A program made the translations under genes and the position numbers. The notes under the pieces are model-generated. The model ran no database searches and was not told the origin of the DNA. It was given only the letters and a program-made list of their open reading frames with translations. DNA of 59,269 nt from Nitrospira sp. Its GTDB lineage: Bacteria > Nitrospirota > Nitrospiria > Nitrospirales > Nitrospiraceae. The stretch spans positions 1 to 59,269 of the forward strand of contig JARFPM010000036.1 of NCBI GenBank assembly GCA_030444405.1, given 5' to 3'. Below, piece by piece: positions 49,991-50,742 of the stretch (positions within the stretch are counted from its first letter, which is position 1; the number at the start of each line of letters is the position of its first letter).

Positions 49991-50287
49991 CTAATACCAA
50001 ATACTGAAGTTTGAATATCGCCCGGTTGCGGTACTCCACTCTGTCTCAATCTTTGTGACACGGGCGGCAGGAGGACCGGTCTTCAATTCACGTAGAAGTA
50101 CTTCGATTACCGTTCTTCTTCCCTCCACGTCCAGTTCGACCGGACCATCGTCGAGATTGCGGACGCCACCTACTAGATCTAGTCGTGTGGCGGTTCGTGC
50201 CACAAACGCGCGAAATCCCACCCCCTGCACACGACCACTCACCAGGATACGCACTCGAACCGGCAGTTTATCAACCGATTGAGTCAT
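49991..50287 (-). CDS. Acylphosphatase
   Basis: 98 residues. The phosphate-binding loop SGRVQGVGFRAFV with its catalytic Arg and the later VRNLDDGPVELDVEG with Asn define the family. It hydrolyses acyl-phosphate bonds. It appears to be the first gene of the sigma factor-apt cluster. Confidence 0.9.
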   Translation of the reverse strand: MTQSVDKLPVRVRILVSGRVQGVGFRAFVARTATRLDLVGGVRNLDDGPVELDVEGRRTVIEVLLRELKTGPPAARVTKIETEWSTATGRYSNFSIWY

Positions 50288-50514
50288 CTGGCCTTACCAA
50301 GATCCTTGAATGCAAACAGCCACTTGCGGGTTCGCTCAGCGGATATTCTCACACCTCTTCCGATGCGTCACGCGTTTTACAAATCTGCGCCGGAAACTCG
50401 GCCCGGAACATAGAATTTATGAATAATCGACTCTAGACATGTGCAAGACCAGAATGGATGGGCAATTCACACGAAATGAGGTTTGGAATGAAGAACAACA
50501 CCGGGGAGTCTTAT

Positions 50515-50555
50515 CCGCCGGCGTCAATTACGATAAGACGCTAAATAGCCGGCGG
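50515..50555. repeat. Hairpin copy A with covarying arms
   Basis: Arms CCGCCGGC (50515-50522) and GCCGGCGG (50548-50555) pair perfectly around a 25-base loop. The loop matches copy B at 19 of 24 positions, and two base pairs in the stem differ between the copies in a compensating way. Confidence 0.7.
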
Positions 50556-50607
50556 TACGAACAAGCTTGGTATGACTAAAGAAACGAGGATTACTGGATG
50601 TGTTTAT

Positions 50608-50647
50608 CCGGCGCCTCAATTTCGATACTGCGATAAATAGGCGCCGG
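50608..50647. repeat. Hairpin copy B with covarying arms
   Basis: Arms CCGGCGCC (50608-50615) and GGCGCCGG (50640-50647) pair perfectly around a 24-base loop. Both copies are preceded by TTAT. It begins 19 bases past the encoded CCA of tRNA-Pro and could also act as that gene's processing or termination signal. Confidence 0.7.
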
Positions 50648-50665
50648 TTCACACGAAGTGCGGTG

Positions 50666-50742
<77 letters not shown>

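Follow-up and report, generated by a model that had tools for sequence, protein, structure and literature searches.

The 59,269-nucleotide stretch of Nitrospira sp. DNA analysed here, which we call the window, carries immediately 3' of its tRNA-Pro (CGG) gene two tandem copies of a repeat. On balance, this repeat is probably a double-hairpin element of the Nitrospiraceae that is site-specific, non-autonomous and either mobile now or formerly so. The parts of the locus, all on the minus strand, are as follows:

50666..50742, minus strand: tRNA-Pro (CGG), found by ARAGORN (Rfam RF00005, 64.1 bits), CCA encoded
50591..50665, minus strand: unit 1 (= copy B), covariance model R1, E 1.6e-15, a copy in the training set
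50650-50662, minus strand: small hairpin H1 of unit 1, read from the sequence
50608-50647, minus strand: GC hairpin H2 of unit 1, with the tail GGATAAACACATCCAGTAA, read from the sequence
50498..50573, minus strand: unit 2 (= copy A), covariance model R1, E 2.6e-19, a training copy
50515-50555, minus strand: GC hairpin H2 of unit 2, which also has an H1-like part, CCAAGCTTGTTCG, and the tail GGATAAGACTCCCCGGTGT
50574..50590, minus strand: pyrimidine-rich linker at the 3' end of unit 1, read from the sequence (tandem period 93 bp)
50461..50487, minus strand: third-unit remnant (CCAAACCTCATTTCGTGTGAATTGCCC; H1 of a decayed unit), with the same remnant in the orthologous position of G044, G012, G018 and G047
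49991..50287, minus strand: acylphosphatase gene, the syntenic anchor outside the element

Along the tRNA strand, which is also the natural orientation of the hairpins, the order is CCA, unit 1, pyrimidine-rich linker, unit 2 and third-unit remnant. Unit 1 starts immediately 3' of the CCA of tRNA-Pro, unit 2 stands in tandem to it, and both hairpins lie inside the 378-bp gap between the tRNA gene and the acylphosphatase gene. The first-pass annotation of this DNA had described copies A and B downstream of tRNA-Pro, and they are present in the sequence as it said: copy A (50515-50555) and copy B (50607-50648) have the stems CCGCCGGC/GCCGGCGG and CCGGCGCC/GGCGCCGG, their two stem differences are both compensated, their 24-base loops (TCAATTACGATAAGACGCTAAATA and TCAATTTCGATACTGCGATAAATA) are identical at 19 of 24 positions, and TTAT precedes both on the plus strand. 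A 21-base element, TTCACACGAA, had been set apart from the hairpins. It does occur twice, at 50648 and 50465, but it is the antisense of the unit's H1 and not a separate element, the first copy being H1 of unit B and the second the H1 remnant of the third unit.

The unit measures about 76-90 bp and consists of two hairpins, the small H1 and the GC-rich H2 with a conserved loop. It starts with A-W-ACC, and H1 takes the form CGCAC-TTC-GTGCG, CAACC-TTC-GGTTG or AAGCTTGCT. The H2 stem is 8-9 bp long and GC-rich; its commonest loop type has about 25 nt (TATTTATCGnnnTATCGTAATTGA), the loops spanning 8-33 bases altogether. According to the column frequencies, H2 is followed on its 3' side by GGATAAACACCTCCAGTG and then by a pyrimidine tract, the right end of the unit being placed to about +/-5 bp. 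Spacing within arrays is mostly 71-96 bp or double that in four genomes. A possible third hairpin, around CTCCA in the unit tail, was spotted by eye. The likeness between the tail GGATAAACACCTCC and the 16S 3' end GGATCACCTCC was left as chance because the tail varies too much (CCTTC, CCACC, CATCC). A match between the nucleotide that follows the stem (GGAG vs GGAT) and the target (CCTCC vs NCC) was likewise rejected, the G/T counts of 11/21 vs 25/106 being weak and confounded by phylogeny.

A compensated stem seen in two copies alone is weak evidence, and it is the family-wide data that settle the fold. Compared with dinucleotide shuffles, copies A and B both have the better fold (z -2.4 and -3.9 on the plus strand, -2.4 and -4.9 on the minus strand). 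Over 115 distinct copies, 94.3% of the H2 pair cells are standard pairs, and changes on both sides number 147 vs 36 +/- 4.5 in shuffles, which are the fairer control because the H2 alignment was fitted to the model. When the structures were slid as a control, pairing fell to 26-55%. In H1 of the TTC type the arms pair at 81% of positions vs 64% when re-dealt (22 distinct arm pairs); covariation is weaker here than in H2, with fewer distinct arms. The claim that the fold is kept while the stem changes thus holds across the 115 copies. The selection on RNA or single-stranded DNA structure that had been read from it is plausible but unproven, because mobile hairpins and quasi-palindrome correction also yield compensated stems.

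A search for the loop pattern with at most three mismatches gave nine matches in the own genome (G000) and none with the reversed control. The covariance model, built from nine own-genome copies, found 34 matches there at E up to 1 and matched 22 of the 23 genomes sampled in the genus. Across the phylum, 67 of 295 genomes matched at E<=1e-5, all within Nitrospiraceae, and another family of the same order gave a few single weak matches (E ~1e-4). An exact-pattern search of 84,980 species genomes returned 33 stretches, every one labelled Nitrospira, Nitrospiraceae or Nitrospirae; N. moscoviensis (NZ_CP011801) is among these genomes. The plasmids and phages searched for the unit gave no match, and an Rfam scan of the window reported the tRNA only, the best sub-threshold match reaching 18.4 bits vs a gathering threshold of 95. 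At the loci examined, 315 distinct, dispersed units were detected by their stem. As in MITE- or REP-like repeats broadly taken, the copies are many, dispersed, intergenic, short, structured and without coding capacity. The covariance-model search of related genomes that the first-pass annotation had proposed found further copies adjoining tRNA genes, and its counter-case, that relatives would hold no more copies, falls away.

Starts at tRNA ends are not confined to tRNA-Pro: most arrays begin at the final base of a tRNA or tmRNA gene. In G000, G012, G018 and G021, the distance between the array start and the end of such a gene is 0-1 base for 37 of 77 arrays, and the exact 3' junctions in these four genus genomes involve many isotypes. 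The rest comprise 7 arrays at most 300 bp from such a gene, 12 that follow a tRNA 3' fragment recognised by a simple pattern, and 21 others. Inspection of these 21 by eye placed L022, L090, L104, L114 and L100 at tRNA 3' ends or fragments; L054 lies antisense to a tRNA-Ser 5' end, and five belong to a MITE-like repeat. Counted by eye, a unit is carried by about 14 of the roughly 39 tRNA genes of G000 and by about 19 of the 46 of G018. Among ten genera sampled, 32 of 67 array starts are exact tRNA or tmRNA ends (by eye); such ends occur in the nine other genera sampled, with few in g11 and g19.

Other site classes were also found. In the genera g13, g18 and g19, many units stand immediately 3' of CCTCCA, the antisense of a divergent gene's Shine-Dalgarno sequence; this CCTCCA|TACC class comprises 11 genes that have GGTATGGAGG-N-ATG or a sequence close to it, among them zapA (ZapA), mscL (MscL), a gene for UDP-glucose dehydrogenase and one for an HU-like protein. 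In G113, G283 and G012, units are found antisense to the 5' end of tRNA-Ser (CCCCTCCA). Others, antisense and downstream of 5S rRNA 3' ends, are preceded by GGTCCA. Five units occupy the apex of the MITE-like repeat (GTAC-A|TACC...GTACG; L034, L035, L117-119), of which copies without a unit exist at L163, L286, L272, L072, L262 and L275. The common rule is a CCA directly before the left end (NCCA at tRNA and tmRNA genes), or ACA in the MITE-like repeat, and it is missing at a few array starts.

The MITE-like sequence is itself a second Nitrospira repeat, with inverted ends GCAGGATGCTGAAAAAGTCCGCC and a variable apex GTAC-N-GTAC. Downstream of 5S rRNA or the rRNA operon, L015, L080 and L103 hold pseudo-5S 3' ends (TGGACCTCTGCCGGGTTACA) in arrays together with terminator hairpins and antisense units, and a shortened 5S copy followed by a short unit is also present in the 5S region. 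At L214 (G018:C1:1141964-1145874), a 3.8-kb segment holding a PIN-like gene lies between a tRNA-Lys gene with its unit and a tRNA-Lys 3' fragment with its unit, and about 300 bp of the flanks are duplicated. At L216-L217 and L222 (G012:C5:187-218 kb and G012:C1:146-165 kb), 3' fragments of tRNA-Thr are repeated, every one of them with a unit; these regions encode very large proteins (1300-1960 aa) and are likely tRNA-Thr islands. The proteins scanned in the inter-unit islands (tRNA-Lys of G018, tRNA-Thr of G012) included no recombinase. At L218 (G021:C2:892-2342), on the downstream side of tmRNA, an MNT/HEPN toxin-antitoxin-like gene pair lies cassette-like between two near-identical units.

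The tRNA-Pro locus can be followed between species, since acylphosphatase orthologues were found in 37 of 39 genus genomes, with tRNA-Pro upstream in 28 of the 30 loci examined. Nearly all these loci begin with CCA-AACC or a close variant, decayed arrays included. The number of units ranges from 0 intact to 4, loop types differ between species, and units are gained and lost as modules (G012, G047, G018). The block TTGTAAAACGCGTGACGCATCGGAAGAGGTGTGAGAATATCCGC (50310-50400), in the minus-strand leader of the acylphosphatase gene, is strongly conserved genus-wide and is a possible promoter or structured leader. Elsewhere, near-identical cores lie in different flanks (95% for L330/L334 of G283, 97% for L352 of G173). 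The 95-97% cores and the modular gain and loss fit a mobile or recently mobile element. Candidates for filled and empty versions of a site are the MITE-like copies with and without a unit and, in comparisons between species, the changes at tRNA-Pro. No target-site duplication was visible at the units.

We propose that the copies would have spread by DNA insertion, through an enzyme recognising the folded unit and a CC/CCA target, the substrate probably being single-stranded DNA. A copy that lands right outside a tRNA gene, or right upstream of a Shine-Dalgarno sequence, would not disrupt the host gene, and this would account for the places where copies persist. Arrays may lengthen and shorten as further units insert at the end of one already present, or through tandem recombination. 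The dominance of tRNA ends in Nitrospira may reflect survival, the gene being left whole, or a real tRNA preference. Against mobility, a target of CCA only would predict non-tRNA sites in far greater number than Nitrospira shows. Only tentatively do we go further and suggest a bacterial mobile element of a new class that lacks any recognisable transposase, landing at the tRNA or tmRNA 3' CCA (CCTCCA elsewhere), with the folded unit as substrate of a candidate Nitrospiraceae enzyme; this is possible rather than likely.

Could the units instead be functional RNA, that is, 3' external transcribed spacers of pre-tRNA and pre-tmRNA, co-transcribed and processed, and serving 3' maturation or acting as small regulatory or sponge RNAs? 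The leuZ 3'ETS of E. coli is a reported precedent for such a sponge or regulatory RNA, and the unit would then be a systematic family of pre-tRNA trailers. The shared strand with the tRNA or tmRNA, the exact abutment to CCA, the covariation, the conserved loops and the about 14 and 19 tRNA genes with a unit mentioned above all agree with this idea. However, the majority of tRNA genes, isoacceptors included, have no unit, in many species (G004, G043, G053, G006) the orthologous site has decayed, and loop types interchange freely at one locus. Moreover, in other genera the unit is found in mRNA leaders and at tRNA-Ser 5' ends, antisense in both cases, as well as within the MITE-like repeat, and no single RNA role accounts for these placements. 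Units antisense to a Shine-Dalgarno sequence and to a tRNA 5' end argue for a DNA-level element over one conserved RNA; taken with the nesting in another repeat, they indicate DNA insertion at a CC/CCA target, a single function as RNA being unlikely. Quite unlikely, in our judgement, is spread without transposition, in which an ancestral trailer of a tRNA was copied along with tRNA 3' ends and distributed by recombination or gene conversion from one tRNA gene to another, quasi-palindrome correction keeping the stems paired. Such trailer duplication has a model in the rtT tandem repeats of the tyrT operon in E. coli; like them, the units are tandem repeats directly 3' of tRNA, some with a tRNA 3' fragment, but they occur genome- and family-wide, with a period of about 90 bp, and at non-tRNA sites too. 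The tRNA 3' fragments before several units, the tandem periods and the tRNA-Lys duplication of G018 (3' end, unit and about 300 bp, around the 3.8-kb segment) suit this scheme, whereas no tRNA sequence is common to the donors and the units that lie at CCTCCA, in an unrelated repeat's apex or antisense to 5S.

Mobilisation in trans by a Y1 (HUH) transposase, as for palindrome-associated elements of the IS200/IS605 or REP/RAYT type, is very improbable. Both halves of the unit have hairpins, a fixed short sequence stands 5' of the left end, no duplication is visible, and Y1_Tnp is present in 36 of 60 family genomes; its relation to unit number is weak (rho 0.31, p 0.055, unit counts of at least 16 scored as 16). 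The first-pass annotation had raised a link to Y1/REP-type transposases, and none emerged: the unit-rich genomes G271, G113 and G318 lack a Y1_Tnp match, and no unit lies in any of the 30 Y1 loci examined. The loops of 8-33 bases also speak against it, and no GTAG-like REP tetranucleotide was found 5' of the hairpin in the column frequencies of the unit head. Reverse transcriptase, with tRNA-primed copying, was rejected for want of correlation with unit number (rho 0.14, p 0.39), and neither of the two candidates examined, Y1_Tnp and reverse transcriptase, is a mobilising gene linked to the units. An integron attC site or another tRNA-anchored cassette system would account for arrays of variable-stem hairpins and for the MNT-like/HEPN-like pair of G021, but is scarcely credible: RYYYAAC/GTTRRRY ends flank 0 of 315 units (shuffles 0.25) and nearly all arrays have no genes. 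The earlier judgement that neither CRISPR nor attC fits is thus borne out.

The unit is of the non-autonomous palindromic repeat kind and fails the REP/RAYT and attC tests; its closest kinds, which it resembles in its workings, are mitochondrial double-hairpin elements, tRNA-flanking palindromes and bacterial REP/PATE repeats. Two adjacent hairpins with covarying stems, which the unit has, are the mark of the mitochondrial type, described as double-hairpin elements in Allomyces (Paquin 2000, cited in PMC2800124) and as GC palindromes flanking tRNA genes in Neurospora (Yin 1981, cited in PMC2800124). These elements are short, with one or two GC hairpins, beside tRNA genes in Neurospora, their mobility likewise inferred without target duplication and with no enzyme assigned. 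Unlike them, the unit lies in a bacterial chromosome, has an exact CCA junction, fixed-orientation tandem arrays, and a conserved loop and tail, and uses a second site class antisense to Shine-Dalgarno sequences. The likeness to the fungal elements is a resemblance only, the unit being too short for descent to be inferred. With RAYT-associated REP/REPIN sequences it shares short, palindromic, intergenic, high-copy, non-autonomous copies with covarying stems, but it has no REP 5' tetranucleotide, a large loop, a tRNA-end target and no Y1 transposase link. PATE-like elements of the IS200/IS605 kind have similar hairpin ends, insertion by a fixed short sequence and no obvious target duplication; the unit differs in its tRNA specificity and tandem arrays, and no transposase-carrying relative was found. 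Arrays of structured sites with variable stems recall integron attC, whose core motifs are absent here, as are cassettes as a rule.

This Nitrospira repeat appears to be undescribed so far. In the open-access literature we found no paper describing it in the genus; RepRanger (PMC12306157) includes N. moscoviensis among its tabulated palindrome counts, and its text is silent on tRNA genes as sites. The target rule, an exact CCA junction and a second class antisense to Shine-Dalgarno sequences, is sharp and testable. The enzyme behind the unit, once found, would add a new route of mobilisation. A large proportion of the tRNA genes have their 3' flanks filled by this repeat, in a genus that is environmentally central, its members being nitrifiers that include comammox bacteria.
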